Below the pieces are notes generated by a model. That model made no database searches and had not been told where the DNA came from. It saw nothing but the letters and a program-made list of their open reading frames with translations. A DNA stretch of 64,000 nucleotides, from NCBI RefSeq assembly GCF_027604915.1, contig NZ_JAJAQC010000008.1, positions 124,001-188,000 on the forward strand, in the 5' to 3' direction. A program made the translations under genes and the position numbers. Shown here piece after piece: positions 37,428 to 55,393 of the stretch; position 1 is the first letter of the stretch, and each line of letters starts with the position of its first letter. Source of the DNA: Streptomonospora mangrovi. GTDB lineage: Bacteria; Actinomycetota; Actinomycetes; Streptosporangiales; Streptosporangiaceae.

Positions 37428-37516
37428 GGTGGTCCCCCTCCGGGTGTCGGCTGCGTGCCAGTGCATGCCAGTGCGTGTCAGGTGCGGGTCGGCGGCGTGC
37501 GGTCGCGCGGCGCGGT

Positions 37517-39558: not shown

Positions 39559-40737
39559 TCACACCGACGGCAGCCCCGTGTAGTTCTCCGCGAGCGCGGC
39601 GGCGGCCGGCTCGCAGGCGGCGATGTGCTCCAGGTGGGAGATCTGGAGCCGGCGGTCGAACTCCGAGCCCTCCGGGTCCAGGTGCAGCAGCGTCGTCATC
39701 CAGTAGGAGAAGTGCTCGGCCCGCCACACCCGCCGCAGCGCGGTCGCCGAGTAGGCGTCCAGCCCGGCGGCGTCGCCCTTGGCGAACCACGCGCGCAGCC
39801 CCTCGGCCAGCAGCAGCACGTCGCGCATCGCCAGGTTGAGGCCCTTGGCGCCGGTGGGCGGCACGATGTGGGCGGCGTCGCCGGCCAGGAACAGCCGCCC
39901 GTGGCGCATCGGCTCGGTGACGAAGCTGCGCATCGGCGTGATGCCCACGTCGGTGATGGGTCCTTCAGCCAGGCTCCAGCCGCCGTCGCGCAGCGCGAAC
40001 CGGGCGGCCAGCTCCGACCAGATCCGGTCGTCGGACCACTGCTTCGGGTCGGTGCCGGCGGGCACCTGGAGGTAGAGCCGGCTGACCGTCTCCGAGCGCA
40101 TGCTGTGCAGCGCGAAGCCCCGGTCGCTGTGGGCGTAGATCAGCTCGTCGCAGGAGGGCGCGACGTCGGCGAGGATCCCCAGCCAGGCGAAGGGGTAGAC
40201 CTTCTCGAAGGTGCGCACCACCTCGGCGGGCAGGCTGGCGCGGCCGATGCCGTGGAAGCCGTCGCAGGCCACCACGTAGTCGCACTCCAGCACCTCCTCG
40301 GCGCCGCCGCGCGTGAACCGGATCCGGGGCCGTTCGGACACCGCGTCCTCGATGGCGGTGGCCTCGGCCTCGAACAGGATCTGCCCGCCGTCGGCCAGGC
40401 GGCGCGCGATGAGGTCCTTGACGATCTCGGTCTGCGCCCAGATCAGCACGCTGCGCCCCCCGGTGAGCGCGGGGAAGTCGACGCGGTGGCCGCGCCCGTC
40501 GAAGCGCAGCTCGATGCCCTCGTGCACGAACCCCTCGCGGTCCATCCGCTCGCCCAGGCCGGTGGCGCGCAGCGCCTCGGCCACGCCGTGCTCCACCACG
40601 CCGGCGCGCTGGCGCTTCTCGCAGTAGGCGCGGTCGCGCCGCTCCAGCACGACCGACTCGATCCCGTGCAGGTGCAGCAGGTGGGAGAGGAACAGGCCGG
40701 CGGGGCCGGCTCCGACAATGCCGACGGGGGTGCGCAT
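39559..40737 (-). CDS. pobA: 4-hydroxybenzoate 3-monooxygenase
   Basis: Hydroxylates 4-hydroxybenzoate to protocatechuate using FAD and NAD(P)H. It is 392 aa, the normal length. The N-terminal dinucleotide fold has GAGPAGLFLSHLL, ERRDRAYCEKRQRAGVVEHG covers the PobA-typical loop, CDYVVACDGFHG is the DG motif, and GDAAHIVPPTGAKGLNLAMRD is the flavin-phosphate site. ATG 40737 is at the start of the Rossmann fold. It is last in the pca cluster, 161 bases after pcaC; that gap contains CTGAC-N3-CTGAC direct repeats and may hold its own promoter. Confidence 0.95.
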   Translation of the reverse strand: MRTPVGIVGAGPAGLFLSHLLHLHGIESVVLERRDRAYCEKRQRAGVVEHGVAEALRATGLGERMDREGFVHEGIELRFDGRGHRVDFPALTGGRSVLIWAQTEIVKDLIARRLADGGQILFEAEATAIEDAVSERPRIRFTRGGAEEVLECDYVVACDGFHGIGRASLPAEVVRTFEKVYPFAWLGILADVAPSCDELIYAHSDRGFALHSMRSETVSRLYLQVPAGTDPKQWSDDRIWSELAARFALRDGGWSLAEGPITDVGITPMRSFVTEPMRHGRLFLAGDAAHIVPPTGAKGLNLAMRDVLLLAEGLRAWFAKGDAAGLDAYSATALRRVWRAEHFSYWMTTLLHLDPEGSEFDRRLQISHLEHIAACEPAAAALAENYTGLPSV

Positions 40738-40898
40738 AACCGGGTCCGCGGCACCGGGCGCCGGCCGCGCGGGGCGGCCGGGGGGCGCCGCTTGCCTCCC
40801 TTGCAGAGGTGGGTGGTCAGTGAGTCAGAGGGGGTCGAGCGGGTGGAGCGGATGGCGCGGGCGGGGGAGCGGGGCGGGGCCGGGACGCGGTCCCCGGC

Positions 40899-41330
40899 TC
40901 AGCGGGCGGGGCCGTCCCCGGGTGCCGGACCGGTCGCGGGCGCGGCGCCGGACTCGGCCAGCACGCGCTGGGCGATCCCGAACGCCTTGTTGGCGGCGGG
41001 CACCCCGCAGTAGATCGCCGCCTGGAGGAACACCTCGGCGATCTCCTCGGCGGTCAGGCCGTTGCGCAGCGCCGCGCGCACGTGCATGGCCAGCTCGTCC
41101 CAGTGGCCCTTGGCCGTGAGCGCGGTCAGCACCATGCAGCTACGGGTCCGCCGGTCCAGGCCGGGCCGGGTCCAGACCTCGCCCCAGGCGTAGCGGGTGA
41201 TCAGGTCCTGGAACGGCGCGGTGAACGGGGTCGTGGCCGCCTCGGCGCGGTCGACGTGGGCGTCGCCCAGCACCTCCCGGCGCACGGCCATGCCCTCGGC
41301 GCGGCGGGCGGTGTCGTCGCCCACGGTCAT
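40899..41330 (-). CDS. pcaC: 4-carboxymuconolactone decarboxylase
   Basis: Decarboxylates 4-carboxymuconolactone to 3-oxoadipate enol-lactone. It is 143 aa, a CMD/AhpD-fold protein. Family blocks: REVLGDAHVDRAEAATTPF, the YAWGEVWTRPGLDRRTRS segment, LAMHVRAALRNGLT and EVFLQAAIYCGVPAANKAF. Its ATG overlaps the pcaD stop. In Streptomyces and relatives this domain is commonly fused to PcaD as PcaL; here they are two overlapping genes. Confidence 0.94.
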   Translation of the reverse strand: MTVGDDTARRAEGMAVRREVLGDAHVDRAEAATTPFTAPFQDLITRYAWGEVWTRPGLDRRTRSCMVLTALTAKGHWDELAMHVRAALRNGLTAEEIAEVFLQAAIYCGVPAANKAFGIAQRVLAESGAAPATGPAPGDGPAR

Positions 41331-42145
41331 GGTGCCTCCTCGGTCTCGGTGCCCGCCTCGGCGCCGCCGGGCAGGGCGGTGCCGCCGAAGTGGGCGAGCA
41401 GCAGGTCGTTGAGCGCCGCCGCGCACTCCCAGCTCGCCAGGTGCGCGCCGGGCAGCGCGCGCAGGCGCGCGCCGGGGATCCCCGCCGCGATCGTGCGGGC
41501 GTGCTCGGGCGGCATGGCGGGGTCGGCCGAGCCGCCGACCACCAGGGTCGGCGCGGTCACGCGCGGCAGGTCGCCGCGCAGGTCCATGTGCTCGATGGCG
41601 GCGCAGCAGCCGGCGTAGCCCTCGGCGGGGGTGGCCGCGACCATCTCGCGCATCCACCGCACCGTCCGCGGCTCGCGCTCGGCGTAACCGGGGGTCAGCC
41701 AGCGGTCCACGACCGCCTCGGCGATCGCGGCGGTGCCCGAGGCGCGCACGGTGGCGGCGCGCGCCGCCCAGTCCTGCGGGCGCATCCGCGCCGACGTGCA
41801 CACCAGCGCCAGCCGGTCGATCCGCTCGGGGGCGTGCGCGGCCAGCCACATACCGGTCATGCCGCCCAACGACACCCCGGCGAAGTGGGCGCGCTCGGTG
41901 CCGAGGCGGTCCAGCAGCCGCAGGACGTCGCCGCCCAGGTCGGCCAGCCGGTAGGGGCCGGGCGGCACCGGGGAGGCGCCGTGGCCGCGCGTGTCGTAGC
42001 GCACCACCCGGTAGCGGGCGGCCAGCGCGGCGACCTGGGGCTCCCACATCGCCAGCGTGCTGCCCAGCGAACCCGACAGCACCACCAGCGGCGCGTCGGG
42101 CGGCCCCTCGGCCACGTGGTGCACCTCGACGGTCTCGGCGTTCAC
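41327..42145 (-). CDS. pcaD: 3-oxoadipate enol-lactonase
   Basis: Hydrolyses 3-oxoadipate enol-lactone to 3-oxoadipate. It is a 272-aa alpha/beta hydrolase. The oxyanion strand LVVLSGSLGSTLAMWEP, the nucleophile elbow GVSLGGMTG, the late GSADPAMP aspartate and the PGAHLASWE histidine give the triad. GTG 42145 has GAGGAGGGA upstream and overlaps pcaB's stop. It also overlaps pcaC, so the three are one transcript. Confidence 0.94.
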   Translation of the reverse strand: MNAETVEVHHVAEGPPDAPLVVLSGSLGSTLAMWEPQVAALAARYRVVRYDTRGHGASPVPPGPYRLADLGGDVLRLLDRLGTERAHFAGVSLGGMTGMWLAAHAPERIDRLALVCTSARMRPQDWAARAATVRASGTAAIAEAVVDRWLTPGYAEREPRTVRWMREMVAATPAEGYAGCCAAIEHMDLRGDLPRVTAPTLVVGGSADPAMPPEHARTIAAGIPGARLRALPGAHLASWECAAALNDLLLAHFGGTALPGGAEAGTETEEAP

Positions 42146-43548
42146 CGTGCTTCGTCCCTCCTCGGCGTCGTTGCGGCCGGCGGGCGCGCGGCCCGCTCGG
42201 CGGCGCGCCGCCGGTGGGCGGCCAGGGCGCGGTCGATCAGCGGCGCGGCCGAGCCCAGGTAGCCGGCCGGGTCCAGCAGCGCGGCGATGCGCGCGCGGTC
42301 GCGGCGGCCCGCCAGGCGCTCGGCCAGCACCTCCTCCAGCGGGCGGCCCGCGCGCGCGGCCTCGGCGCAGGCGTCGGCGACCAGGGCGTGCGCCTGGCCG
42401 CGGCCCAGCTCCCCGGCGAGGTCGGTGGTGACCCGCTCGGCCAGCGGGAACCCGCCCGAGGCGGCGAGGTTGGCGCGCATCGCCTCGGGGCGGACCTCCA
42501 GCCGTTCCAGGCTGGTGCGCAGCCACGCCACGGCCGAGCCGGTGGTGCGCAGCAGGTCGCTCAGCGCAGGCCACTCGGCGTGCCAGGCGCCGGCGGCCCG
42601 CTGGTGCTGCTGGTCCTGGGCGCCCAGCAGGGTCGCGGCCAGGCCGGGTGCGCGCCGGGCGCACGCCGCCGCCTGCACGGCCGCGATCGGGTTGCGCTTG
42701 TGCGGCAGGGTGGAGGACCCGCCGGTGCCCGGACCGCCGGCCTCGACCACCTCGCCGACCTCGGTCTGGGCCAGCAGCGCGATGTCGCCAGCCGGCTTGG
42801 CCACCGCACCGCACACCCGCGCCAGGGCGCCGGCCAGCTCGGCGATCCGGCCGCGCTCGGTGTGCCAGGGCAGGTCCGGTTCGGCCAGCCCGGTCTCGGC
42901 GGCGAACGCCGCCACCACCGCGAGCCCGTCGCCGCGCAGCGACGCCAGGGTGCCGGCCGCGCCGCCGAGCTGGGCGGCGGCGCGGTGGGCCAGCACGTGC
43001 TCCAGGGCCGCGACGGACTCCTCCAGCCCGGTCAGCCAGGTGGCGGCCACCAGTCCGAAGGTGGTGGGCAGCGCCTGCTGGAGGAGCGTGCGCCCGGCCA
43101 TCACCGTGTCGCGGTGGGCGGCGGCCAGTCCCGCCAGCGACTCCGCCGCCGCGGCGGCGTCGGCGGAGATGGCCGCGCCCGCGCGGCGCGCCACCAGCAT
43201 CGCGGCGGTGTCCATGATGTCCTGGCTGGTGGCGCCTTGGTGGATGTGGCGAGCGGCCTCGCCGCCGACCGCGCGGGTCAGCTCGGCCACCAGCGGCACC
43301 ACCGGGTTGCCCGCGCCGGTGGCGGCGGCCCCCAGCGCGGCGGCGTCGAACCGGTCGGGGTCGCAGGCGGCCGTGATCGCCTCGGCGTGCTCGGGCGCCA
43401 CCAGCCCGATGCGGGCGTGGGCGCGCGCCAGCGCCGCCTCGGCGTCCAGCAGCGCGCGCAGCCACGCCCGGTCGCCGGTCTCCTCGGCGGCCGGCCCGGC
43501 GGCGAAGACGCCGCCGAACAGGCCGACCGCCGCCTGCGCACCGGTCAC
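42142..43548 (-). CDS. pcaB: 3-carboxy-cis,cis-muconate cycloisomerase
   Basis: Cyclises 3-carboxy-cis,cis-muconate to 4-carboxymuconolactone. It is 468 aa and belongs to the fumarase/aspartase superfamily. The signature GSSTLPHKRNP is intact, preceded by QTEVGEVVE, and HIHQGATSQDIMDTA is the N-terminal active-site region. The start is GTG 43548, 27 bases after the pcaG stop. A C-terminal Ala/Arg tail extends a little beyond the usual end. Confidence 0.95.
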   Translation of the reverse strand: MTGAQAAVGLFGGVFAAGPAAEETGDRAWLRALLDAEAALARAHARIGLVAPEHAEAITAACDPDRFDAAALGAAATGAGNPVVPLVAELTRAVGGEAARHIHQGATSQDIMDTAAMLVARRAGAAISADAAAAAESLAGLAAAHRDTVMAGRTLLQQALPTTFGLVAATWLTGLEESVAALEHVLAHRAAAQLGGAAGTLASLRGDGLAVVAAFAAETGLAEPDLPWHTERGRIAELAGALARVCGAVAKPAGDIALLAQTEVGEVVEAGGPGTGGSSTLPHKRNPIAAVQAAACARRAPGLAATLLGAQDQQHQRAAGAWHAEWPALSDLLRTTGSAVAWLRTSLERLEVRPEAMRANLAASGGFPLAERVTTDLAGELGRGQAHALVADACAEAARAGRPLEEVLAERLAGRRDRARIAALLDPAGYLGSAAPLIDRALAAHRRRAAERAARPPAATTPRRDEAR

Positions 43549-43575
43549 GACGCCTCCCCAGCAGCTCGGTGGACC

Positions 43576-44139
43576 TCACACATCGAAGAAGACCGTCTCA
43601 TCCTCTCCCTGGAGGCGGATGTCGAAGCGGTAGCCGTCCTCGGCGGGTCGGGCCACCAGCGTGGCGCGCTCGGGCTCGGGCACGCTCGACAGCACCGGGT
43701 CGGCGGCGTTGGCCGCGGCCTCCTCGGGGAAGTAGACGCGGGTGACCGTGCGGTGGAGCATGCCGCGCGCGAACACCGACACGTCGATGTGGGGCGCCTG
43801 GAGCGTGCCGCCGGGGCCGGGCACCGGGCCGGGCTTGAGGGTGAAGATCCCGTACTCGCCGTTGGCGTCGGTGGGGCAGCGCCCGAACGCGCGGAACCCG
43901 GGCCGGGCCACCGCGCCGCGCGGGTCGTCGGGGTGGTCGAACCGGCCCTCGGGGTCGGCCTGCCAGGTCTCGATGAGCCCGTCGGGCACGGGCGCGCCAG
44001 CGCCGTCGTAGAGGACGCCGCGGATCCAGACCCCCTCGGGCGTGCCCTCGGCGACGGCGAAGGGGCCGTCGGGCCAGGGCAGCCCGATGTGCAGGTAGGG
44101 GCCGACGGTCTGGGAGGGGGTGGTCGCGTAGCGGGCCAT
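43576..44139 (-). CDS. pcaG: Protocatechuate 3,4-dioxygenase alpha subunit
   Basis: Non-iron subunit of the intradiol dioxygenase that opens protocatechuate. It is 187 aa with the intradiol fold: SQTVGPYLHIGLPW, ETWQADPEGRFDHP, FGRCPTDANGEYGIFTLKPG and APHIDVSVFARGML. The metal-binding tyrosines and histidines of PcaH are not conserved, as expected of the alpha chain. Its ATG overlaps the pcaH stop. Confidence 0.95.
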   Translation of the reverse strand: MARYATTPSQTVGPYLHIGLPWPDGPFAVAEGTPEGVWIRGVLYDGAGAPVPDGLIETWQADPEGRFDHPDDPRGAVARPGFRAFGRCPTDANGEYGIFTLKPGPVPGPGGTLQAPHIDVSVFARGMLHRTVTRVYFPEEAAANAADPVLSSVPEPERATLVARPAEDGYRFDIRLQGEDETVFFDV

Positions 44140-44876
44140 CAGTCCTCGTCCACCTCGTCCTCGAACACGGTGGCCTCGCGGCCGCGCAGCACGATGTCCC
44201 ACTCGTAGGCCAGCGCCCACTCCGGCGCGGTGTTGGCGTAGTCGAACCGCGCCACCAGCCGCTCGCGCGCCTTCTCGTCGGGGATGGAGTTCCACATGGG
44301 GTCCTGGAAGAACAGCGGGTCGCCCGGGAAGTACATCTGGGTGACCAGCCGCTGGGTGAAGGCCCGCCCGAACAGGGAGAAGTGGATGTGGGCTGGCCGC
44401 CAGGCGTTGTCGTGGTTGCGCCAGGGGTAGGCGCCGGGCCGGATCGTGGTGAACCGGTAGCGGCCCTGGTCGTCGGTGAGGGTGCGGCCCACGCCGGAGA
44501 AGTTGGGGTCCAGCGGGCAGGGCCAGTTGTCGCCGGTGTGGCGGTAGCGCCCGCCGGCGTTGGCCTGCCAAATCTCCACCAGGGTGTGGGGCACGGGGCG
44601 GCCGTCGCCGTCGCGCACCTGGCCGTGCACGATGATGCGCTGGCCCTGGGGCTCGCCGTCGTGCTGGCGGGTGAGGTCGCTGTCGTTCTCGCTGATGCGG
44701 TCCTCGCCCAGCAGCGGGCCGGTGACCTCGGTCAGCAGGTGCGGCAGCAGCCGCAGGCCGCGCTTGGGGTGGCGCAGCGCGGTGCTGCGGTAGCCGGGGT
44801 AGTCCAGCGGCGGGTGCACCTCGGCGTCGCGCGCGTAGGCGGGCGGCGCCGGGCGGGTGGTGGGGTCGGTGCTCAT
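44139..44876 (-). CDS. pcaH: Protocatechuate 3,4-dioxygenase beta subunit
   Basis: Iron-containing subunit of protocatechuate 3,4-dioxygenase, 245 aa. Fe(III) ligands are readable: tyrosine in GGRYRHTGDNW, tyrosine in RPGAYPWRNHDNAW, and the two histidines of RPAHIHFSLF. The N-terminal HPPLDYPGYRSTALRHP segment is characteristic. It starts 40 bases after the pcaF stop and overlaps pcaG. Confidence 0.96.
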   Translation of the reverse strand: MSTDPTTRPAPPAYARDAEVHPPLDYPGYRSTALRHPKRGLRLLPHLLTEVTGPLLGEDRISENDSDLTRQHDGEPQGQRIIVHGQVRDGDGRPVPHTLVEIWQANAGGRYRHTGDNWPCPLDPNFSGVGRTLTDDQGRYRFTTIRPGAYPWRNHDNAWRPAHIHFSLFGRAFTQRLVTQMYFPGDPLFFQDPMWNSIPDEKARERLVARFDYANTAPEWALAYEWDIVLRGREATVFEDEVDED

Positions 44877-44916
44877 GGGGGCGGTGCCTCCTCCCGGTCT
44901 GCGGGGGTGGTGGGGG

Positions 44917-46092
44917 TCAGGCGTGCAGCACGACGGCCAGGCCCTGGCCGACGCCGATGCAGATCGCGGCCAGGCCCCAGCCGCCGCCGCGCCGGTGCAG
45001 CTCGTGGGCCAGGGAGCCGAGGATGCGCGCGCCGGAGGCGCCCAGGGGGTGTCCGATGGCGATCGCGCCGCCGTTGGGGTTGACGATCGCGGGGTCCAGC
45101 TCGGGCCACAGCCGCAGGCAGGCCAGCGACTGGGCGGCGAACGCCTCGTTCAGCTCGACCACCGCCAGGTCCGCCCAGCCGATCCCGGCGCGGCGCAGCG
45201 CCGTCTCTGCGGCCTGGACCGGGCCGATGCCGAAGCGGTGCGGCTCCACGGCGGCCACCCCGCGGCTGACGATGCGCGCCAGCGGGGCGCGGCCGGCGGC
45301 CTGGGCCGCCGCCTCGTCGCCGATGAGCAGGGCCGCCGCGCCGTCGTTGAGCGGCGAGGCGTTGCCGGCGGTGACCGTGCCGTCGGGGCGGAAGGCCGGC
45401 TTGAGGCCGGCGAGCTTGTCCAGGGAGGTCGCGCGGATGCTCTCGTCGCGCTCCAGTTCCACGCCCGGCACGGGCACGACCTCGGCGTCGAAGACGCCCT
45501 TCTCCCAGGCCGCGGCGGCGTTGACGTGGGACTGGAGCGCGAAGGCGTCCTGCTCGGCGCGGCCCACGCCGTGCAGCTCGGCGAGCTGCTCGGTGGCCTC
45601 GCCCAGCGACACCGTCCACTCCGCCGGCATGGCGGGGTTGACCATGCGCCAGCCCAGGGTGGTGGAGTGCAGGGTCTCGTGGCTGGCGGGGAAGCCCTTG
45701 GCCGGTTTCTGGAGCACCCAGGGGGCGCGGCTCATCGACTCCACGCCGCCGGCCACCACCAGGGAGGCGTCGCCCACGGCCACGGCGCGGTTGGCGGCGA
45801 TGACCGCCTCCAGGCCCGAGCCGCACAGCCGGTTGAGGGTGGCGCCGGGCACCGAGGTGGGCAGCCCGGCCAGCAGCGCGGCCATGCGGGCGACGTCGCG
45901 GTTGTCCTCGCCGGCGCCGTTGGCGTCGCCGAAGTAGACGTCGTCGATCGCGGCGGGGTCCAGGCCGGGGGAGCGGTCCACCAGCCCGCGCACGGCGTGG
46001 GCGGCGAGGTCGTCGGGGCGGACTCCGGACAGCGCGCCCCCGTACTTGCCGAAGGGCGTGCGCACCGCGTCCAGGACGTATACGTCGGTCAT
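44917..46092 (-). CDS. pcaF: 3-oxoadipyl-CoA thiolase
   Basis: Splits 3-oxoadipyl-CoA with CoA into succinyl-CoA and acetyl-CoA, ending the pathway. It is 391 aa. The acyl-accepting cysteine is in LNRLCGSGLEA, the histidine in NGGAIAIGHPLGASGARI, and the second cysteine in AAICIGVGQG. FGDANGAGEDNRDVARMA is typical of PcaF/PaaJ. ATG 46092 has AGAAGG eight bases upstream; a GTG at 46098 is too close to that site. Confidence 0.95.
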   Translation of the reverse strand: MTDVYVLDAVRTPFGKYGGALSGVRPDDLAAHAVRGLVDRSPGLDPAAIDDVYFGDANGAGEDNRDVARMAALLAGLPTSVPGATLNRLCGSGLEAVIAANRAVAVGDASLVVAGGVESMSRAPWVLQKPAKGFPASHETLHSTTLGWRMVNPAMPAEWTVSLGEATEQLAELHGVGRAEQDAFALQSHVNAAAAWEKGVFDAEVVPVPGVELERDESIRATSLDKLAGLKPAFRPDGTVTAGNASPLNDGAAALLIGDEAAAQAAGRAPLARIVSRGVAAVEPHRFGIGPVQAAETALRRAGIGWADLAVVELNEAFAAQSLACLRLWPELDPAIVNPNGGAIAIGHPLGASGARILGSLAHELHRRGGGWGLAAICIGVGQGLAVVLHA

Positions 46093-46196
46093 GTCCACTG
46101 CCTTCTCTGTGCGGTGGGGGAGCCGCCGGCGCGGGCGCGGGCGGCGCCGTGGGTGGCGGCCGGGGCGGGCGGGCGCGGCCGGCGCCGCTGCCGTTT

Positions 46197-46955
46197 CTAC
46201 ACCCCGTCGGCTCCGGTGAGCGAGCGCAGCACCTTCAGCTCCTCAGGGGTGGGCTCGGGGGTGGTGGCCAGATCGGGGGCCACGGCCAGGTCCCAGCCGG
46301 TGGCGGCGCGCGCGTCCTCGGCGCTCACCCCGGGGTGCACCTGGACCAGGGTCAGCTCGCGGGTGGCGGGGTCGGGCTCCAGGACGCCCAGGTCGGTGAT
46401 GACGCGGGTGGGGCCGGCGCCGCGCAGGCCCAGCCGCTCGCGGTCGCCGGGGCCCGCGCCGTGGCCCACCGAGGTCACGAAGTCGACCCGCTCCACGAAC
46501 GCGCGCCGGCTCTGCCGCACGATCACCACGACCTCGCGGCAGGAGGCGGCGATCTCGGGGGCGCCGCCGGCGCCGGGCAGCCGCACCTTGGGGTCGGTGT
46601 AGTCGCCGATGACGGTGGTGTTGATGTTGGCGTAGCGGTCGATCTGGGCGGCGCCGAGGAACCCGACGTCGATGCGGCCGGGCTGGAGCCAGTAGTTGAA
46701 GACCTCGGGCACCGACACCACGGTGTCGGCGGTCTCGGCGAGCACGCCATCGCCGATGGACAGCGGCAGGGTGTCGGGCCGGGTGCCCAGGGTGCCGGAC
46801 TCGTAGATCATCCACAGGCCGGGGGCGTGGGTGCGCACGGCCAGGTTGGCGGCGGTGCTGGGCAGGCCGATGCCCACGAAGCACGCCGTCTGGGAGGTCA
46901 GGCAGCGGGCGGCGGCGACCGTCATGATCTCGTCGGAGGTGTAGCCGGTCGTCAT
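46197..46955 (-). CDS. pcaJ: 3-oxoadipate CoA-transferase beta subunit
   Basis: With PcaI moves CoA from succinyl-CoA to 3-oxoadipate. It is 252 aa, a family I CoA-transferase of the glutaconate-transferase-like branch common in actinobacteria. IYESGTLG carries the probable catalytic glutamate; FVGIGLPSTAANLA, VGFLGAAQIDRYANINTT and RLPGAGGAPEIA are family landmarks. It begins one base after the pcaI stop, and the pair are co-translated. Confidence 0.92.
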   Translation of the reverse strand: MTTGYTSDEIMTVAAARCLTSQTACFVGIGLPSTAANLAVRTHAPGLWMIYESGTLGTRPDTLPLSIGDGVLAETADTVVSVPEVFNYWLQPGRIDVGFLGAAQIDRYANINTTVIGDYTDPKVRLPGAGGAPEIAASCREVVVIVRQSRRAFVERVDFVTSVGHGAGPGDRERLGLRGAGPTRVITDLGVLEPDPATRELTLVQVHPGVSAEDARAATGWDLAVAPDLATTPEPTPEELKVLRSLTGADGV

Positions 46956-46956
46956 G

Positions 46957-47781
46957 TCATCCTGCCTTTCCGGGCAGCGGCGCCGGCGCGCCGATCTCGT
47001 CGGCCAGCCACCGGGCGAACGCGTCGCGGTCGCGGCTGACGGCGTCCCACGCCTGGTAGGCGGCGTTGTCGCGGGCGTAGTAGCCGTGGGCGTAGGAGGG
47101 GCGGGCGCCGCCGGGCACCACGGAGACGGCGGTGACCACGCGGGAGGGCAGCAGCACCTGGCCGGGCACCGGCTCCAGGCGGTCCACGACCTCCTCGACG
47201 GTGACCAGGCTGCGGCGCGCGGCCAGCACGGCCTCCTTCTGGATGCCGGTGATGCCCCACAACTGCACGTTGCCGGCGCGGTCGGCGCGCTGGGCGTGGA
47301 TCACGGTGACGTCGGGGTTGAGCGCGGGCACGGCAGCCAGCCGCTCACCGGTGAAGGGGCACTCCACGGTCTTGATGGTGGGGGTCTGGTCGACCAGGTC
47401 GGTGCCGGCGTAGCCGCGCAGCACCGCGAACGGCACGCCCGAGGCCCCCGCGACGTAGCGGTTGGCCATGCCGGCGTGGCTGTGCTCCTCGATCTCCAGG
47501 GGGCGCGGCCAGCCGTTCTGGATGGCGTCGCGGAAGCGGTGCAGCGAGCCCACGCCGGGGTTGCCGCCCCAGGAGAACACCAGGCGGGCGGCGCAGCCGG
47601 CGCCGATCACCTGGTCGTAGACCACGTCGGGGGTCATCCGGACGAGGGTGAGGTCGCGCCGGCCCTGCCGGATGATCTCGTGGCCGGCGGCCACGGGGAT
47701 CAGGTGGGTGAAACCCTCCAGCGCGACCGTGTCCCCGTCGTGGACGAGTTCGCGGACCCCCTCGTCCAGCGGCACGATCAT
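46957..47781 (-). CDS. pcaI: 3-oxoadipate CoA-transferase alpha subunit
   Basis: Alpha partner of PcaJ, 274 aa. Landmarks: ELVHDGDTVALEGFTHLIPV, GRRDLTLVRMTPDVVYDQ, GAGCAARLVFSWGGNPGVGS and IHAQRADRAGNVQLWG. ATG 47781 matches the family start; an in-frame ATG at 47835 would start inside the presumed operator. It is the first structural gene of the operon and has its own regulated promoter. Confidence 0.92.
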   Translation of the reverse strand: MIVPLDEGVRELVHDGDTVALEGFTHLIPVAAGHEIIRQGRRDLTLVRMTPDVVYDQVIGAGCAARLVFSWGGNPGVGSLHRFRDAIQNGWPRPLEIEEHSHAGMANRYVAGASGVPFAVLRGYAGTDLVDQTPTIKTVECPFTGERLAAVPALNPDVTVIHAQRADRAGNVQLWGITGIQKEAVLAARRSLVTVEEVVDRLEPVPGQVLLPSRVVTAVSVVPGGARPSYAHGYYARDNAAYQAWDAVSRDRDAFARWLADEIGAPAPLPGKAG

Positions 47782-47796
47782 GAGCGGTCCAAATCT

Positions 47797-47860
47797 GTTC
47801 GGATGGCGAATGCGTGTTCTTAGTTCGCACATCATTGCCGACAGTCGTCCCGAGGGTCAA
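47797..47860 (-). promoter_or_regulatory. pcaIJ promoter with PcaR-type box
   Basis: On the minus strand TTGACC (47855-47860) and AATGAT (47831-47836) are 18 bases apart. TGTTCTTAGTTCGCACA (47815-47831, plus-strand reading) adjoins the -10. Its core GTTCTTAGTTCGCAC matches the Pseudomonas PcaR box as I recall it (GTTCGATAATCGCAC) at 10 of 15 positions. A second short inverted repeat, TTCG-N5-CGAA, lies at 47798-47810. Confidence 0.65.
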
Positions 47861-47896
47861 GGGTCCCGAAGCGGGCGCGGGGGCCGCCGGGGCGGC

Positions 47897-48706
47897 TCAG
47901 CCCTGGCCCGAGGCCCGCCGCGCGATGTCGAGGTCGGCCTCGATGCGCGCGGCCGTGGCCAGCAGCGGCGGCAGCAGGTCGCGCCGGATGTCCTCCACCG
48001 TGGACCGGCTGGCGTGCGCCGAGACGTTGACCGAGGCCACCACCCGGCCCTCGCGGTCGCGCACGGGCGCCGCCACCGAGCGCAGCCCCTCCTCCAGTTC
48101 CTGGTCCACCAGCGCCCAGCCCTGGGCGGCCACCCGCTCCAGTTCGGCCCGCAGCCGCGCCGGGGTGGTCAGCGTGAAGGCGGTGAGCCGGCGCATCTCG
48201 ACCCGGCGCAGGTAGGCGTCGATCTCGGGCTCGGGCAGGCCGGCCAGCAGCACCCGGCCCATCGAGGTGGCGTAGGCGGGGAAGCGGGTGCCCACGCTGA
48301 TGGCCACGTGCATGATGCGCGAGGTGGGCACGCGGGCCACGTAGACGACGTCGTCGCCGTCGAGCACCGACACCGACGACGACTCCCGCAGTTCGGCCGC
48401 CAGCCGCTCCAGGTGCGGCTGGGCGACCTCGGGAAGTCCGGCCGAGGACAGGTAGGCGTAACCCAGTTCCAGCACCCTGGGCGTCAGCGCGAACATCCGG
48501 CCGTCGGTGCGCACGTAGCCCATGTCGGTCAGGGTGAGCAGGAACCGGCGGGCCGCGGCCCGGGTCAGGCCCGTCACGCGGGCGACGTCGCTGAGCGTCA
48601 TCGACGGCTGCTGGGCGGTGAACGCCCGGATGACGGCGAGGCCGCGCTCCAGCGACTGCACGAAGTGCTCGGGCTTGGGCTGGACAGCGGTCGGGTCCGT
48701 GCTCAT
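47897..48706 (-). CDS. pcaR: IclR-family regulator of the pca genes
   Basis: A 269-aa IclR-type regulator. The winged HTH is clear (SLERGLAVIRAFTAQQPSMT and DVARVTGLTRAAARRFLLTL). The effector domain follows (SVLDGDDVVYVARVPTSRIM, then TSMGRVLLAGLPEPE), with the PcaR/PcaU/PobR-group feel. It heads the pca cluster on the same strand, 115 bases before pcaI, and has a matching box at its own promoter. Protocatechuate or 3-oxoadipate would be the expected effector. ATG 48706 is chosen over a longer frame that is Pro/Arg-rich. Confidence 0.9.
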   Translation of the reverse strand: MSTDPTAVQPKPEHFVQSLERGLAVIRAFTAQQPSMTLSDVARVTGLTRAAARRFLLTLTDMGYVRTDGRMFALTPRVLELGYAYLSSAGLPEVAQPHLERLAAELRESSSVSVLDGDDVVYVARVPTSRIMHVAISVGTRFPAYATSMGRVLLAGLPEPEIDAYLRRVEMRRLTAFTLTTPARLRAELERVAAQGWALVDQELEEGLRSVAAPVRDREGRVVASVNVSAHASRSTVEDIRRDLLPPLLATAARIEADLDIARRASGQG

Positions 48707-48820
48707 GGTCTCCCCACATGCGGTGCGCGGGTGGCGGACGCGGCGCGGTGCGCGCCTGCGCGGCGGGGGCGCCGCGCGGGGCGGCGGGGGTGGGCCCTCC
48801 GCCGCCGGTCCTCGGGGCGA

Positions 48821-48855
48821 TGTTCTCATACCGCACAGGGCTGCGGAGGTGTCCA
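48821..48855 (-). promoter_or_regulatory. Promoter of the IclR gene with PcaR-type box
   Basis: On the minus strand TGGACA (48850-48855) and TATGAG (48825-48830) are 19 bases apart. TGTTCTCATACCGCACA (48821-48837, plus reading) overlaps the -10. It shares TGTTCT and CGCACA, with identical spacing, with the site before pcaI, suggesting autoregulation. The region 48707-48820 holds only GC-rich sequence. Confidence 0.6.
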
Positions 48856-48894
48856 TCCCTACCAGGACCGGGGGACATAACCGGGGGCGGGGGG

Positions 48895-48955
48895 TTGACG
48901 TCGGTGATCGCAGTCACCTAGGTTCGCTCAAAGAACGCTCGTTCGTACTTCGTAC
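48895..48955 (+). promoter_or_regulatory. Promoter of the MetE-like/ABC/ALDH operon with operator sites
   Basis: TTGACG (48895-48900) and TAGGTT (48919-48924) are 18 bases apart, a good promoter. Overlapping and following it are GTTC-N7-GAAC (48922-48936), GAACG-CT-CGTTC (48932-48943) and GTTCGTACTTCGTAC (48941-48955). The last fits the pattern of the pcaI and pcaR boxes. The leader from about 48931 to 49188 is long (about 260 bases) and contains no recognised gene. Confidence 0.65.
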
Positions 48956-49188: not shown

Positions 49189-50319
49189 ATGACCCAGCCC
49201 GCGCTCGGGCGGCCGACCCCGCCGTTCCGCGCCGACCACGTCGGCAGCCTCCTGCGCCCAGCCGCCCTGCGGGAGGCCCGCGACCGCCACGCCCGAGGAC
49301 TGATCGACGCGGCCGAACTGCGCGCCGCCGAGGACGCCGCCGTGGTCGAGGCGGTCCGCGCCCAGGAGGAGATCGGCCTGCGCTCGGCCACCGACGGGGA
49401 GTTCCGCCGCGCCTCCTGGCACATGGACTTCATCTACCAACTCGGCGGAATCTCCCGCGCCCAGGACGAGATCCAGGTCACGTTCCACAACGAGCGGGGC
49501 GACATCAGCTTCACCCCCGCCGCGCTCCAGGTCACCGGCCGGATCGGGCTGGAGCACACGATCTTCGCCGACGCGTTCTCCTTCCTGCGCGACACGGTCG
49601 CCACGGCCACGCCCAAGCTGACCATCCCCTCGCCCAGCATGGTCCACTACCGGGGCGGACAGGCCGCGATCGACCGCTCGGTCTACCCCGACCCGGCGGA
49701 GTTCTGGAGCGACCTGTCGGCGGCCTACGCCGAGCAGATCCGGCGCCTGGGCGAGCTGGGCTGCGCCTACCTGCAACTGGACGACACCAGCCTGGCCTAC
49801 CTCAACGACCCGCGCCAGCGCGCGATGCTCCAGGAACGCGGCGAGAACAGCACCGACCTGCACAAACGCTACATCTCCCAGATCAACGCGGCACTGGCCG
49901 GGCGGCCCGAGGGCATGCGGGTCACCACCCACCTGTGCCGCGGCAACTTCCGCTCGTCCTGGGTGGCCGAAGGCGGCTACGATTTCGTCGCCGAGGAACT
50001 CTTCGGCACCCTCGGCGTCGACGGGTTCTTCCTGGAGTTCGACGACGCCCGCTCCGGCGGGTTCGCACCACTGCGCTTCGTCCCGCCCGGCAAGCAGGTC
50101 GTCCTGGGCCTGGTCACCACCAAGCGTGGTGCCCTGGAAAGCAAGGACGACCTCAAGCGCCGCATCGACGAGGCGAGCCGGTACGTCCCCCTGGAACAGC
50201 TCTGCCTCGCGCCGCAGTGCGGTTTCTCCAGCACGCTGGAGGGCAACCGGCTCAGCCACGACGAGCAGTTCGCCAAGCTGCGGCTGATCGTCGAGACCGC
50301 GGCCGAGGTGTGGGGTTGA
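49189..50319 (+). CDS. MetE C-terminal-domain-like methyltransferase
   Basis: A 376-aa protein related to the catalytic C-terminal half of cobalamin-independent methionine synthase. Zinc ligands are conserved: H and C in TTHLCRGN, E in FFLEFDDARS, C in LAPQCGFSS; the methyl-acceptor region reads YLQLDDTSLAYL. The N-terminal half of MetE is absent, which in stand-alone homologues (YxjG/YxjH type) usually means a different methyl donor. RADHVGSLLRP and ATDGEFRR are typical of that group. It heads an operon with an ABC importer and an aromatic aldehyde dehydrogenase next to pca genes, so a methyl-transfer step in aromatic use (for example demethylation) is conceivable but unproven. ATG 49189 follows GAAGGG. 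Confidence 0.8.
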   Translation: MTQPALGRPTPPFRADHVGSLLRPAALREARDRHARGLIDAAELRAAEDAAVVEAVRAQEEIGLRSATDGEFRRASWHMDFIYQLGGISRAQDEIQVTFHNERGDISFTPAALQVTGRIGLEHTIFADAFSFLRDTVATATPKLTIPSPSMVHYRGGQAAIDRSVYPDPAEFWSDLSAAYAEQIRRLGELGCAYLQLDDTSLAYLNDPRQRAMLQERGENSTDLHKRYISQINAALAGRPEGMRVTTHLCRGNFRSSWVAEGGYDFVAEELFGTLGVDGFFLEFDDARSGGFAPLRFVPPGKQVVLGLVTTKRGALESKDDLKRRIDEASRYVPLEQLCLAPQCGFSSTLEGNRLSHDEQFAKLRLIVETAAEVWG

Positions 50320-50405: not shown

Positions 50406-51365
50406 ATGCGCCGGATGATCCTCCCCGTGGCCGCGACGGTCACACTGCTCGCCACCTCCGCCTGCGGCGGGGGCGGCGGTGAAGGCGGTGGTGACGGAGA
50501 CGGCCCGCAAAGCATCACCGTCGGCGCCATCCCCATCGTCGACGTCGCTCCGCTGCACCTCGGCGTCGACCAGGGCATCTTCGAAAAGCACGGCATCGAG
50601 TTGACGATCGAGAACACCACCGGCGGCGCCCAGGCCGTGCCCAGCGTGGTCAGCGGCGAGTTCGACTTCGCCTTCGGCAACACCACCTCGCTGCTGGTCG
50701 CCCAGGAGCAGGACCTCCCGGTGCGGATCGTCGCCAACGGCGTCACCAGCACCGGCGAGGAGGGCAACGACTTCGGCGGGGTCGTGGTGCCCGAGGGCAG
50801 CGACATCGCCGAGCCCCGGGACCTCGAGGACGCCACCATCGCGGTGAACAACCTGGAGAACATCGGCGACACCACCGTGCGCAACACGGTGCGCCAGGCC
50901 GGTGGCGACTCCGACACCATCGAGTTCGTGGAGCTGCCGTTCCCGGAGATGCCCGCGGCCCTGGAGCGGGGCGACGTGGACGCCGCCTGGGTGGTCGAGC
51001 CGTTCCTGACGGCGGCCAAGGCCGGCGGCGCCACCGAGATCGCCTCCAACTTCGTGGACGCCCACGAGTCGCTGTCGGTGGCCTACTACTTCACCACCGA
51101 GCAGGTGATCCAGGAGGACCCCGAGCTGGTGGAGAACTTCACCGCCGCCATGGAGGAGTCCCTGACCTACGCCAACGACAACCCCGACGAGGTGCGCCGG
51201 ATCCTCGGCGAGTACACCGAGATCGAGGAGTCGGTGGCCCAGGAGATCGTGCTGCCGACCTGGCCGACCGACCTCAACCGGGAGTCGACCCAGGCCGTGG
51301 CCGACCTGATGGTGCACGACGGTGTCCTGGAGGACAAGCCCGACCTGGACGAACTGTACCGATGA
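50406..51365 (+). CDS. NitT/TauT-type ABC substrate-binding lipoprotein
   Basis: A 319-aa solute-binding protein of the nitrate/sulfonate/taurine class. Signal peptide and lipobox (LLATSAC) are followed by a Gly-rich linker and the fold ITVGAIPIVDVAPLHLGVDQ, GGAQAVPSVVSGEFDFAFGN and the RGDVDAAWVVEPFL hinge region. In this class ligands include sulfonates, thiamine precursors and aromatic acids; nothing in the sequence fixes it. ATG 50406 has GGAG upstream. The stop overlaps the first permease start (ATGA). Confidence 0.9.
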   Translation: MRRMILPVAATVTLLATSACGGGGGEGGGDGDGPQSITVGAIPIVDVAPLHLGVDQGIFEKHGIELTIENTTGGAQAVPSVVSGEFDFAFGNTTSLLVAQEQDLPVRIVANGVTSTGEEGNDFGGVVVPEGSDIAEPRDLEDATIAVNNLENIGDTTVRNTVRQAGGDSDTIEFVELPFPEMPAALERGDVDAAWVVEPFLTAAKAGGATEIASNFVDAHESLSVAYYFTTEQVIQEDPELVENFTAAMEESLTYANDNPDEVRRILGEYTEIEESVAQEIVLPTWPTDLNRESTQAVADLMVHDGVLEDKPDLDELYR

Positions 51366-52210
51366 GCACCGACATCGCCGATCCGGCCCGCCCCTCCGCC
51401 GCCCCCGCGGCGGGGGGCGGGCCCCGCGCCCCCAAGCGGGCCCCCAACCGCCTCCTGCTGGGCGCCGCGGGCGTGGCGGGCTTCCTGCTGCTGTGGGAGG
51501 CCGTGCCCCGCCTGGGCATCATCCCCGGCCGGTTCCTGCCGCCCGCCTCCGAGGTCCTGCTGACCCTGGGCGAACGGGTGCTGCTGCCCGAGTTCTGGAT
51601 CGCGGTCTGGGACACCCTCGTCGCCTGGGGCCTGGGCCTGGCCATCGCGTTCGCCGCCGCCGTCGTGCTGGGGTTCGTCGTGGGCGCCGTGCCGGCGCTG
51701 CGCCGGTTCACCTCCTCCACGGTGGAGTTCCTGCGGCCCATCCCCTCGGTGGCGCTCATCCCGCTGGCCATCCTGCTGTACGGCACCGACCTGGCCTCCA
51801 CGCTGATGCTGGTCATCTACGCCGCCTTCTGGCAGATCTACATCCAGGTCCTCTACGGGGTGGGCGACATCGACCCCGTGGCCGAGCAGACCGCCCGCTC
51901 CTACGGGCTGGGCCGCTTCGCGCGGCTGCGCTACGTCGCCTGGCCCTCGGCGCTGCCCTACCTGCTGACCGGGCTGCGGCTGGGCGCCTCGGTCGCGCTG
52001 ATCCTCGCCGTCACCGGCCAGCTCATCATCGGCACCCCCGGCCTCGGCGAGCAGATCGCCGTCGCCCAGGCCAGCGGCGCCACCGCCCTGGTCTACGCGC
52101 TGATCATCGCCACCGGCGCCCTCGGCGTCGCCGTCAACGTCGGCCTGCGCGCCCTGGAGCGGCGCGCGCTGCGCTGGCACGTCTCGGTCCGCGGAGAGGA
52201 GATCGCGTGA
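51362..52210 (+). CDS. NitT/TauT-type ABC permease 1
   Basis: A 282-aa permease with a Pro/Ala-rich tail and about six membrane segments (LLLGAAGVAGFLLLWEAVP first). The ATPase-contact loop is AEQTARSYGLGRFARLRYVA, and PSVALIPLAILLYG is the usual SsuC/TauC motif. A four-base overlap at each end with its neighbours points to coupled translation. It pairs with a second distinct permease, so the channel is a heterodimer. Confidence 0.9.
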   Translation: MSTDIADPARPSAAPAAGGGPRAPKRAPNRLLLGAAGVAGFLLLWEAVPRLGIIPGRFLPPASEVLLTLGERVLLPEFWIAVWDTLVAWGLGLAIAFAAAVVLGFVVGAVPALRRFTSSTVEFLRPIPSVALIPLAILLYGTDLASTLMLVIYAAFWQIYIQVLYGVGDIDPVAEQTARSYGLGRFARLRYVAWPSALPYLLTGLRLGASVALILAVTGQLIIGTPGLGEQIAVAQASGATALVYALIIATGALGVAVNVGLRALERRALRWHVSVRGEEIA

Positions 52211-53031
52211 GCGCCCAGAGCACCCGCCCCGCGCGGGCCACGGCGGGCGGCGGCGTCCTGCGCGCCGGCCTGCGCGTCCTCGAAGTGGTGCTGCTGCCCG
52301 CCGTGCTCATCGCGGTGTGGTGGATCGCCAGCATCACCTCGGGGCTGTACTACCTGCCCACGCCCGGCGAGATCGCGGCCACGTTCGCCGAGCTGTGGTT
52401 CTCCGAGCGCTTCTTCGAGGACGTCCTGCCCAGCGTGGCGCGGCTGCTGGGCGGCTTCGCCCTGGCCGGCGTGCTGGGGGTCGGCCTGGGGATCGTGCTC
52501 GGCCTGTCCCCGCGCCTGCGCGCGGTGGTCGAGCCGGTCCTGGAGTTCTTCCGGGCCATCCCGCCGCCCGTGCTGGTGCCGCTGCTGATGCTGCTCGTGG
52601 GCGTCAGCACCTCGATGAAGCTCGCCGTCATCGTCTCCGGCGCGATCTGGCCGATCCTGCTCAACACCATCGAGGGCGTGCGCGCCGTCGAACCCGTGCT
52701 CATCGACACCTGCCGCTGCTACGGCATCCGCGGCCGGCGCTGGCTGACCACGCTGGTGCTGCGCTCGGCCAGCCCGCAGATCATGGCGGGCCTGCGCCAG
52801 GGGCTGTCCATCGCGATCATCCTCATGGTCATCAGCGAGATGTTCGCCAGCTCCAGCGGCCTGGGCTACAGCATCATCCAGTTCCAGCGCGGCTTCGCCA
52901 TCCCCGAGATGTGGAGCGGCATCGTGCTCCTGGGCCTGCTCGGGTTCCTGCTGGCGCTGCTGTTCGGCCTGGTCGAGCGGCGCGTCCTGAACTGGTACCA
53001 CGGCGTGCGCGCCGCGGCGAAGGGGGAGTGA
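52207..53031 (+). CDS. NitT/TauT-type ABC permease 2
   Basis: A 274-aa permease. GTG 52207 overlaps the upstream stop (GTGA). Segments include VLLPAVLIAVWWIASITSG and the motif PPPVLVPLLMLLVGVSTSMK; the contact loop is IDTCRCYGIRGRRWLTTLVL. It is only distantly similar to permease 1. The stop lies just before the ATPase start. Confidence 0.9.
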   Translation: MSAQSTRPARATAGGGVLRAGLRVLEVVLLPAVLIAVWWIASITSGLYYLPTPGEIAATFAELWFSERFFEDVLPSVARLLGGFALAGVLGVGLGIVLGLSPRLRAVVEPVLEFFRAIPPPVLVPLLMLLVGVSTSMKLAVIVSGAIWPILLNTIEGVRAVEPVLIDTCRCYGIRGRRWLTTLVLRSASPQIMAGLRQGLSIAIILMVISEMFASSSGLGYSIIQFQRGFAIPEMWSGIVLLGLLGFLLALLFGLVERRVLNWYHGVRAAAKGE

Positions 53032-53036
53032 GCGCC

Positions 53037-53885
53037 ATGGCCGCGTCCCCGGCGCCCTCCCCGACCCGATCCACCGCTCCGCACGAGAAGGCACCCATGC
53101 TCGACGTCTCCGGACTGAAGAAGATCTACCCAGGCCAGCACGGCTCCGTCGAGGCCCTGCGCGACCTCACCTTCACGCTCGGCGACGGCGAGCTGGCCTG
53201 CCTGGTCGGCCCCTCCGGCTGCGGCAAAACGACCCTGCTCAAGTGCGTCGCCGGGCTCATGCAGCCCACCTCGGGCACCGTCACGCTGGCCGGCACGCGC
53301 GTGGCCGGGCCGCCGCCGGACATGGCGGTGGTGTTCCAGGAGTACGGCCGCAGCCTGTTCCCGTGGCTGAGCGTGCGCGACAACGTCGAGCTGCCGCTGA
53401 AGGAGAAGCGGCTGGCGCCGGCCCGCCGCCGCGAGCTGTCCGACGAGGCGCTGGAGGCGGTGGGCCTCACCAAGTTCGCCGGCGCCTACCCCTGGCAGCT
53501 CTCCGGCGGCATGCAGCAGCGCGTGGCCATCGCGCGGGCCATCGCCTACGAGCCGCGCGTGCTGCTGATGGACGAGCCGTTCGCGGCCGTGGACGCCCAG
53601 ACCCGCGCCGACCTGGAAGACCTCATCCGGGTGCTGTGGAAGCGGTTCAACATGACCGTCCTGTTCGTCACCCACGACATCGACGAGGCGGTCTACCTGG
53701 GCCAGCGGGTGCTGGTGATGTCGTCCTCGCCCACGGTCATCCAGGACGACGTCACCGTGGACCTGCCCGAGGAGCGCGACCAGATCGGCACCCGCGCCGA
53801 GCACCGGTTCGCCGAGCTTCGCTCCCACATCTACGCCGAGATCCGCAACGCCGCCCGGCCGCAGGCCGCGGCCACCGCCGACTGA
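53037..53885 (+). CDS. NitT/TauT-type ABC ATPase
   Basis: A 282-aa ATPase. Walker A GPSGCGKTT, Q-loop VVFQEYGRSLFPW, signature LSGGMQQR, Walker B VLLMDEPF and switch histidine FVTHDIDEA are all intact. A 20-residue Ser/Pro tail precedes the fold. ATG 53037 has AGGGGGAG eight bases upstream; a GTG at 53028 overlaps the previous stop but is inside that site. Confidence 0.93.
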   Translation: MAASPAPSPTRSTAPHEKAPMLDVSGLKKIYPGQHGSVEALRDLTFTLGDGELACLVGPSGCGKTTLLKCVAGLMQPTSGTVTLAGTRVAGPPPDMAVVFQEYGRSLFPWLSVRDNVELPLKEKRLAPARRRELSDEALEAVGLTKFAGAYPWQLSGGMQQRVAIARAIAYEPRVLLMDEPFAAVDAQTRADLEDLIRVLWKRFNMTVLFVTHDIDEAVYLGQRVLVMSSSPTVIQDDVTVDLPEERDQIGTRAEHRFAELRSHIYAEIRNAARPQAAATAD

Positions 53886-53932: not shown

Positions 53933-55393
53933 ATGACCCTTCTCAACGACCGCGAGTGGCGCGGCAACGTCTTCACCGGCGGGTGGCGCCCCGCCAAGGG
54001 CGGCGACGCCCCCGTCGTCTCGCCCACCACCGGCTCGGAGCTGGGCCGGATCGGCGTGGCCAACGCCGCCGACGTCGCCGAGGCCGCCGAGAACGCCGCC
54101 GAGGCCCAGCGGGACTGGGCCCGGGCCTCGTTCGAGGAGCGGGCCGCCGTGCTGCGCCGGGCGGGCGCGAAGTTCGAGGAGGAGGCCGACGAGATCGCCG
54201 ACTGGCTGATGCGCGAGGCCGGCTCGGCGCGCGGCAAGGCGGGCTTCGAGGTCCACCTGGCCGTGACCGAGGCCTACGAGTGCGCCGCGCTCGCCTCCCA
54301 GCCCACCGGCGAGGTGCTGCGCAGCGCCCAGCCCCGGCTGAGCCTGGCCCGGCGGGTGCCGGTGGGTGTCGTCGGCGTGATCTCGCCGTTCAACTTCCCG
54401 CTGATCCTGGGCATGCGCTCGGTGGCGCCCGCGCTGGCCCTGGGCAACGCGGTGCTGCTCAAGCCCGACCCCCGCACGGCGGTCTCGGGCGGCGCGGTGA
54501 TCGCGGAGGTCTTCCGCGAGGCCGGCCTGCCCGAGGGGCTGCTCCAGATGCTGCCCGGCGGTGCCGAGGCGGGGGAGGCGCTGGTGGCCGACCGGCACGT
54601 GCGGGTCGTGTCCTTCACCGGCTCCACGGCGGCGGGCCGCAAGGTCGGCGAGGCCGCCGGCCGCCACCTCAAGCGGGCGCACCTGGAGCTGGGCGGCAAC
54701 TCCCCGCTGATCGTGCTGGAGGACGCCGACGTCGACCGCGCGGCGTCGGTGGGCGCGTGGGGGTCGTTCCTGCACCAGGGGCAGATCTGCATGACCACCG
54801 GCCGGCACATCGTGCACGAGTCGCTGGCCGACGCCTACGTGGAGCGGCTGGCGGCCAAGGCCGAGGCGCTGACGGTGGGCGACCCCGAGCAGGAGGGCAC
54901 GGCGCTGGGGCCGATCATCGACATCGGCCAGCGCGACCGCATCCACGACCTGGTCACGCGCAGCGTGGAGGCGGGTGCGGAGCTGCGCGCCGGGGGCACC
55001 TACGACGCGCAGTTCTACCGGCCCACGGTGCTGGACAAGGTCACCCGCGACACCCCCGCCTACTCCGAGGAGGTGTTCGGGCCGGTGGCGCCGGTCATCC
55101 GGTTCTCGACCCTGGACGAGGCGGCGGAGATCGCGGCGGCCAGCGACTACGGGCTGTCCCTGGGCATCCTCACCGGCAACCCCATGCGGGGCATGGAGTT
55201 GGCCGACCGGATCCCCAGCGGCATCGTGCACATCAACGACCAGACGGTGGACGACGAGTCCGTGGCCCCCTTCGGCGGCGTGGGCGCGTCGGGCACGGGC
55301 GCCCGCTTCGGCGGTACCCGCGCCAACCTGGAGGCGTTCACCGAGACGCAGTGGGTGACCATGCAGAGCGAGATCAAGCGGTATCCGTTCTAA
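53933..55393 (+). CDS. Benzaldehyde / vanillin-type aldehyde dehydrogenase
   Basis: A 486-aa NAD(P)-dependent aldehyde dehydrogenase. Catalytic cysteine C286 (GQICMTTGR) and general base E252 (LELGGNSP) are present, with the cofactor motif FTGSTAAGR. The N-terminal VGVVGVISPFNFPLILGMRS and FLHQGQICM closely resemble benzaldehyde and vanillin dehydrogenases. Its product, an aromatic acid, would enter the neighbouring pob/pca pathway if the aldehyde is 4-hydroxybenzaldehyde or vanillin-like. ATG 53933 has CGGGAG upstream. It ends the operon at an intrinsic terminator. Confidence 0.87.
   Translation: MTLLNDREWRGNVFTGGWRPAKGGDAPVVSPTTGSELGRIGVANAADVAEAAENAAEAQRDWARASFEERAAVLRRAGAKFEEEADEIADWLMREAGSARGKAGFEVHLAVTEAYECAALASQPTGEVLRSAQPRLSLARRVPVGVVGVISPFNFPLILGMRSVAPALALGNAVLLKPDPRTAVSGGAVIAEVFREAGLPEGLLQMLPGGAEAGEALVADRHVRVVSFTGSTAAGRKVGEAAGRHLKRAHLELGGNSPLIVLEDADVDRAASVGAWGSFLHQGQICMTTGRHIVHESLADAYVERLAAKAEALTVGDPEQEGTALGPIIDIGQRDRIHDLVTRSVEAGAELRAGGTYDAQFYRPTVLDKVTRDTPAYSEEVFGPVAPVIRFSTLDEAAEIAAASDYGLSLGILTGNPMRGMELADRIPSGIVHINDQTVDDESVAPFGGVGASGTGARFGGTRANLEAFTETQWVTMQSEIKRYPF

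Follow-up and report, generated by a model that had tools for sequence, protein, structure and literature searches.

A predicted PcaR regulon spanning protocatechuate genes and a MetE-like/ABC/aldehyde dehydrogenase operon in Streptomonospora mangrovi and relatives

In Pseudomonas putida, PcaR is an activator. For Rhodococcus opacus, PcaR, which like the regulator described here is an IclR protein encoded in the pca cluster, was shown to repress the pca promoters PpcaH and PpcaI, and two other IclR proteins of this organism were identified as activators of aromatic funnelling (PMC9582017). In Corynebacterium glutamicum, PcaR is also an IclR regulator encoded in the pca cluster, as here, and its box is given as GTTCGC-N3-GCGAAC (PMC8222616). 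Binding as tetramers to tandem palindromes with a distance of 18-22 nt is common among IclR proteins, and tandem IclR operators are described across 94 orthologous groups (PMC8222616). No PcaR from Streptomonospora-type genera occurred among the literature matches listed. In the locus presented here, the predicted regulon also spans an operon for a MetE-like protein, an ABC transporter and an aldehyde dehydrogenase (ALDH), reached through a tandem operator; in the available text of PMC8222616 and PMC9582017, no such extension was seen for the PcaR proteins of C. glutamicum and R. opacus. The terms "COG0620", "benzoylformate" and "methionine synthase" are absent from the main text of PMC8222616.

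The window analysed is a stretch of 64,000 nucleotides from Streptomonospora mangrovi (contig NZ_JAJAQC010000008.1, positions 124,001 to 188,000). It contains a pca cluster, an IclR-family gene and, divergent from these, the operon beginning with the MetE-like gene, here called metL. The IclR protein matches TIGR02431, the family of the PcaR/PcaU/PobR regulators, with 348.3 bits (cut-off 284.75) over residues 13-259, which is nearly its full length, and is the sole match at E<=1e-80 in the S. mangrovi genome. Its gene is linked to genes of the branch for protocatechuate, a plant-derived compound, and a palindrome of the type GTNCG-N5-6-CGNAC, as expected for TIGR02431 regulators, is present at a pca promoter. 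Among the catabolic genes, pobA (NF006091) and pcaB (TIGR02426) exceed their family cut-offs, and pcaJ, pcaF, pcaH, pcaG and the pcaD/C-like gene were named by eye from the translations and the conserved order. The genes are as follows.

39559-46955, reverse strand: pobA, pcaD/C-like, pcaB, pcaG, pcaH, pcaF and pcaJ (family cut-offs or by eye)
46957-47781, reverse strand: pcaI-like CoA-transferase subunit (PF01144; TIGR02429 below cut-off; named from its position in the cluster)
47897-48706, reverse strand: pcaR, IclR-family regulator, 269 aa (TIGR02431)
49189-50319, forward strand: metL, MetE-like protein, 376 aa (NF005085, PF01717)
50406-51365, forward strand: ABC substrate-binding protein of the NMT1/SsuA type (PF09084; below the SsuA family cut-off)
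51362-52210 and 52207-53031, forward strand: two ABC permeases (PF00528)
53037-53885, forward strand: ABC ATPase (PF00005)
53933-55393, forward strand: aldehyde dehydrogenase of aromatic type (PF00171)

Beside pobA, at 35791-39324, genes were assigned by eye to a 3-hydroxyacyl-CoA-dehydrogenase-type enzyme with a thioesterase, a BKACE-type cleavage enzyme and a TetR-type regulator; by look, this is a carnitine-like set.

The earlier note had proposed a shared box of the form GTTC-N6-YCGYAC and quoted three 15-mers fitting it. These 15-mers are present on the forward strand at 47816-47830, 48822-48836 and 48941-48955, but the spacer was miscounted: the pattern with N6 has no match in the window, and the real spacer is N5. 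In this corrected form, the pattern occurs four times in the window (0.56 expected), a count that none of 100 shuffles reached, and 73 times in the 6.36 Mb of the genome. Three of the four lie inside 1159 bp, for which the Poisson chance is about 4e-7, calculated for a stretch that was picked after the sites had been sighted. The fourth, GTTCATGATCCGCAC at 20199-20213, is located outside the pca cluster and has an identical match on contig C92.

The number of sites had to be raised from three to five, since GTTCGCTCAAAGAAC and GTTCGGATGGCGAAT had been overlooked. Both surfaced in an alignment of relatives, and both begin exactly 19 bp ahead of a quoted site, so that tandems are present at pcaI and at the operon and a single site at the regulator gene. 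The ranks in the following list refer to a matrix scan of all 15-mers of the window.

47797-47811, forward strand: PcaR-type site forming the second half of the tandem at pcaI, GTTCGGATGGCGAAT, matrix rank 4
47816-47830, forward strand: PcaR-type site at pcaI, GTTCTTAGTTCGCAC, matrix rank 3
48822-48836, forward strand: single PcaR-type site before pcaR, GTTCTCATACCGCAC, matrix rank 2
48895-48924, forward strand: putative operon promoter, TTGACG at 48895-48900, an 18-bp spacer and TAGGTT at 48919-48924 (by eye, conserved)
48904-48917, no strand assigned: GTGA-N6-TCAC palindrome in the spacer between the operon -35 and -10, with an exact copy in 11 of the 33 promoters that carry a tandem
48922-48936, forward strand: site A of the operon tandem, GTTCGCTCAAAGAAC, matrix rank 1, conserved
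48941-48955, forward strand: site B of the operon tandem, GTTCGTACTTCGTAC, matrix rank 7

The matrix was derived from 25 pcaI and pcaR sites of nine family loci and four Nocardiopsis loci; it is free of operon sites and of sites from the S. mangrovi genome, with the qualification that the sister locus L061 has the same pcaR-side site as the window. The five sites rank 1, 2, 3, 4 and 7, and ranks 5 and 6, at 12382 and 20199, lie outside the pca cluster and come ahead of site B. The P. putida PcaR box GTTCGATAATCGCAC (PMC12455658) has 10 of 15 letters in common with the pcaI site; both are 15-bp palindromes with GTTC and CGCAC ends, whereas their centres differ.

Absence of the motif upstream of the operon in relatives had been named beforehand as an outcome that would refute shared control. 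In ten of 40 stretches fetched around metL, pcaR and the operon are divergently arranged (L061-L068, L073 and L077), and all ten carry the tandem before the operon. The pcaR-side site was identified in nine of these ten (not found in L073), and the pcaI site in all nine relatives whose pcaI start falls inside the stretch. In the same nine, the second pcaI site at 47797 keeps 8-9 of its 10 core letters, and in eight sequences an offset of -19 was the best for a pcaI partner (mean score 8.9, against 4.3 for the next). The pcaR-side site has no partner at 19 bp, its next best offset reaching 5.0 in eight sequences. Paired centres 19 nt apart are present at pcaI and the operon but absent at pcaR, and the window tandems form a new instance within the 18-22 nt range for IclR operators (PMC8222616). 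An additional GTTCTCATACCGCAC box was found at position 10485 of L067 (metL on the forward strand), between metL and a second substrate-binding protein gene.

For a wider scan, the tandem search pattern GTTCNNTNNNRGAACNNNNGTKCGNNNNNCGNAC was derived from 13 genomes. This string matches in 33 of 150 family genomes, once per genome, and nowhere in a reversed control over the same 150 genomes. In 32 of the 33 cases, a recognised gene (pcaR, pca, ABC, ALDH, decarboxylase, pobA or MetE-like) lies within 700 bp. Given as divergent and downstream neighbour, pcaR is paired with sbp in 11 cases, with metL in six, with bfdc in three, with aldh in two and with pcaF in one; the others are sbp/pcaI (two), pobA/pcaI (one), aldh only (four), pobA only (one) and pcaI only (one). 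The exception is L117 in G014, which runs to a contig end and has no recognised neighbour. In genomes that had not been used for writing the pattern, 19 of 20 tandems have the expected neighbours. PcaR (E<=1e-80) was identified in all 33 tandem genomes, and none of the 53 genomes without PcaR contains a tandem (p 6e-8), a test that is partly circular because pcaR adjoins the tandem in 23 of the 33. The converse does not hold, the exact tandem being absent from 64 of 97 PcaR genomes. With a cut at E 1e-120, which keeps 69 of 78 metL genomes, pobA was found in 67 of 69 metL genomes versus 62 of 81 others (p 2e-4) and PcaR in 53 of 69 versus 44 of 81 (p 0.006).

In L082 and L091, a tandem precedes aldh-pobA-metL with no pcaR adjoining. 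Together with the GTNCG-type half-sites common to IclR members (PMC8222616), this might indicate that another IclR-type regulator acts on the operon tandem and that the shared half-sites reflect family similarity only. We regard this as very unlikely, since the S. mangrovi genome encodes a single protein of the TIGR02431 type at E<=1e-80, the matrix made from pcaI and pcaR sites ranks site A first, and no tandem occurs in the 53 genomes lacking PcaR.

The connection of tandem and metL is also seen where the regulator gene is located elsewhere. In Nocardiopsis, tandems were identified at L133, L145 and L146 and a weaker tandem-like pair at L138; downstream of the pair lie sbp-bfdc-metL in L133 and metL in the other three. 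The same four assemblies contain a pcaR gene with its own single site on a contig other than that of metL, at a distance from the operon of at least about 200 kb in the genome of L133 and at least about 70 kb in that of L145, L138 and L146 being on short contigs. In three of the four assemblies (L230, L231 and L234), pcaR is divergent from pcaI, and the PcaR frame in the genome of L145 (Nocardiopsis coralli) contains one stop. When the 350 bp upstream of 80 named metL loci were scored, four loci reached 16 or more (L138, L145, L146 and L131, the last being the linked PA3 locus), against none of 1600 single-letter shuffles. With the threshold lowered to 15, five of the 80 loci stand against 3 of 1600 shuffles.

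The genomes are related and the half-sites short, so that the operon sites might have no regulatory role and be kept by inherited promoter sequence or by chance. This appears most improbable: the half-sites and the 19-bp spacing stay while centre and flank letters of the tandems vary, the tandem remains with its neighbour genes where another gene comes first or where pcaR is unlinked, and the reversed control gave 0 of 150. Many relatives retain the same paired signal at these genes, and therefore one PcaR very probably controls both gene sets. The proposal that a single IclR protein links the pca genes, its own gene and the operon is thus supported by the kept sites, the tandem scan and the unlinked Nocardiopsis cases.

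Further sites were sought in the S. mangrovi genome. Allowing up to three mismatches, GTTCTCATACCGMAC gave 122 matches versus 57 in the reversed control. Inspection covered 59 loci, made up of 30 of the 73 GTTC-N5-YCGYAC matches and 30 of the 122 GTTCTCATACCGMAC matches with one in common; eleven of them score 12 or more, one being the pcaR site itself. At none of these eleven was a 19-bp partner scoring above -3.2 identified. Two single 15-mers, L253 and L265, lie outside predicted ORFs and score 18.5 and 17.1, without a 19-bp partner.

The promoter elements were called by eye and by conservation, with no mapped transcription starts. At the operon, site A overlaps the putative -10 TAGGTT and site B lies downstream of it; in the relatives the arrangement is TTGAC, a spacer, a TAwGTT-like -10 overlapping site A, and then site B. 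The pcaI promoter reads TTGACC, 18 bp, AATGAT and then the box. TATGAG was found within the pcaR-side box, which lies 115 bp upstream of 48706, the position chosen as the IclR start. The GTGA-N6-TCAC palindrome of the operon promoter, also present in Nocardiopsis L133, could be the site of a second regulator, of a CRP-like type.

Since site A overlaps the putative -10 and site B follows it, the arrangement is read most simply as repression. PcaR very likely controls the pca genes, its own gene and the metL-ABC-ALDH feeder operon through the five sites, probably by repression; the binding of PcaR, the repression, the inducer and the substrate are what we infer from sequence comparison. PcaR would recognise the five 15-bp palindromic sites, namely the pcaI tandem, the single pcaR site and the operon tandem, and, without inducer, PcaR dimers (a tetramer on the tandems) would cover the -10 or start regions and repress. 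A pathway intermediate would free PcaR, so that ring cleavage, regulator and feeder operon would rise together. The operon would most likely import an aromatic compound, the ALDH would oxidise an aldehyde of the 4-hydroxybenzaldehyde or vanillin type to the acid, and this acid would feed PobA and PcaHG.

The main rival is that PcaR activates the operon as its P. putida namesake is an activator, the inducer-bound protein on the tandem recruiting or positioning RNA polymerase in the manner of PcaU and PobR. The three-box sites of PcaU (PMC8222616) would be in line with it, as would the activation of aromatic funnelling by two R. opacus IclR proteins (PMC9582017). The overlap of site A with the putative -10 and the downstream position of site B argue against activation, as does the fact that the R. 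opacus PcaR itself represses (PMC9582017), and we consider it unlikely.

The nearest solved chains to the ALDH of the operon are 4-hydroxybenzaldehyde dehydrogenases, followed by benzaldehyde, salicylaldehyde and vanillin dehydrogenases. In relatives, the module also contains a protein nearest to benzoylformate decarboxylase (for example in L073, L077, L132, L133, L204, L212, L215, L216 and L222), which suggests a route there from a ketoacid to the aldehyde and the acid, followed by PobA and the pca gene products. No close benzoylformate decarboxylase was identified in the S. mangrovi genome, the best proteins being 30% and 28% identical, which favours an acid or an aldehyde as the compound imported here. 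What had been described as an uncharacterised import operon can be narrowed, on the ALDH and the decarboxylase-like gene of the relatives, to a probable aromatic feeder into 4-hydroxybenzoate/protocatechuate, whose substrate we infer.

The first gene of the operon codes for a protein that matches NF005085 with 454.9 bits (cut-off 313) and has 1ypx as its nearest structure, a subfamily which we take to be YxjG-like. It comprises the MetE catalytic domain but no folate half, PF01717 alone being found in its 376 aa. Of the expected zinc ligands His, Cys, Glu and Cys, the H-x-C motif and a late Cys align with those of 1xpg, and the Glu falls in a poorly aligned stretch. MetH above its cut-off is present in the S. 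mangrovi genome, and metL is therefore not required as a housekeeping methionine synthase; VanA_C had no match in this genome. The core methionine synthases (core-MetE and MesA-D; PMC7005905, PMC7857596) likewise consist of the catalytic MetE domain alone, whereas metL belongs to the NF005085/1ypx subfamily and sits among aromatic-catabolism genes. The term "YxjG" is absent from the available text of these two papers.

For 15 of the 80 named metL loci, a pca, pobA or ALDH relative with at least 45% identity was identified in the fetched stretch, compared with two of 80 for the unrelated control query ribD; among the 15, L152 rests on one thiolase-like gene and six match contigs of the family set. 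Against a strict link between metL and aromatic catabolism, 25 of the 40 family stretches around metL contain no such relative at this threshold. Outside Streptomonospora, metL adjoins or lies near pobA, with or without ALDH, in G024, G055, G078, G093, G117 and G137, which represent two genera and have pobA within 100 bp of metL; metL next to or near pobA was likewise seen at L143, L161, L174, L177, L181, L188, L193, L198 and L201.

A speculative and rather doubtful reading is that metL is a PcaR-controlled zinc methyltransferase, passing methyl groups of methoxylated aromatics of the vanillate/anisate type to homocysteine or another thiol and replacing VanAB independently of oxygen. Grounds for it are that several lineages have pobA-metL or aldh-pobA-metL as neighbours, that the H-x-C and late Cys of the putative zinc motif are kept, that Nocardiopsis carries a PcaR-type tandem directly at metL, and that VanA_C had no match in the S. 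mangrovi genome whereas MetH is present. The neighbours of metL, MetH and the missing VanA_C are compatible with a transfer of methyl groups from methoxy-aromatics but do not demonstrate it. Among literature searched by titles and abstract openings, no MetE-like aromatic demethylase was found.

The locus would represent a known kind of PcaR regulon, in which the feeder operon is the unexpected part, and the role of the MetE-like enzyme is its more novel point. It offers a comparative case in which one PcaR would govern both ring cleavage and an operon for uptake and aldehyde oxidation in Streptomonospora and relatives, with the operators corrected to two 19-bp tandems and one single site. The tandem pattern, with one match per genome where found, is a very specific search string for this regulon. 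The proposed placement of metL in an aromatic pathway makes its function directly testable.
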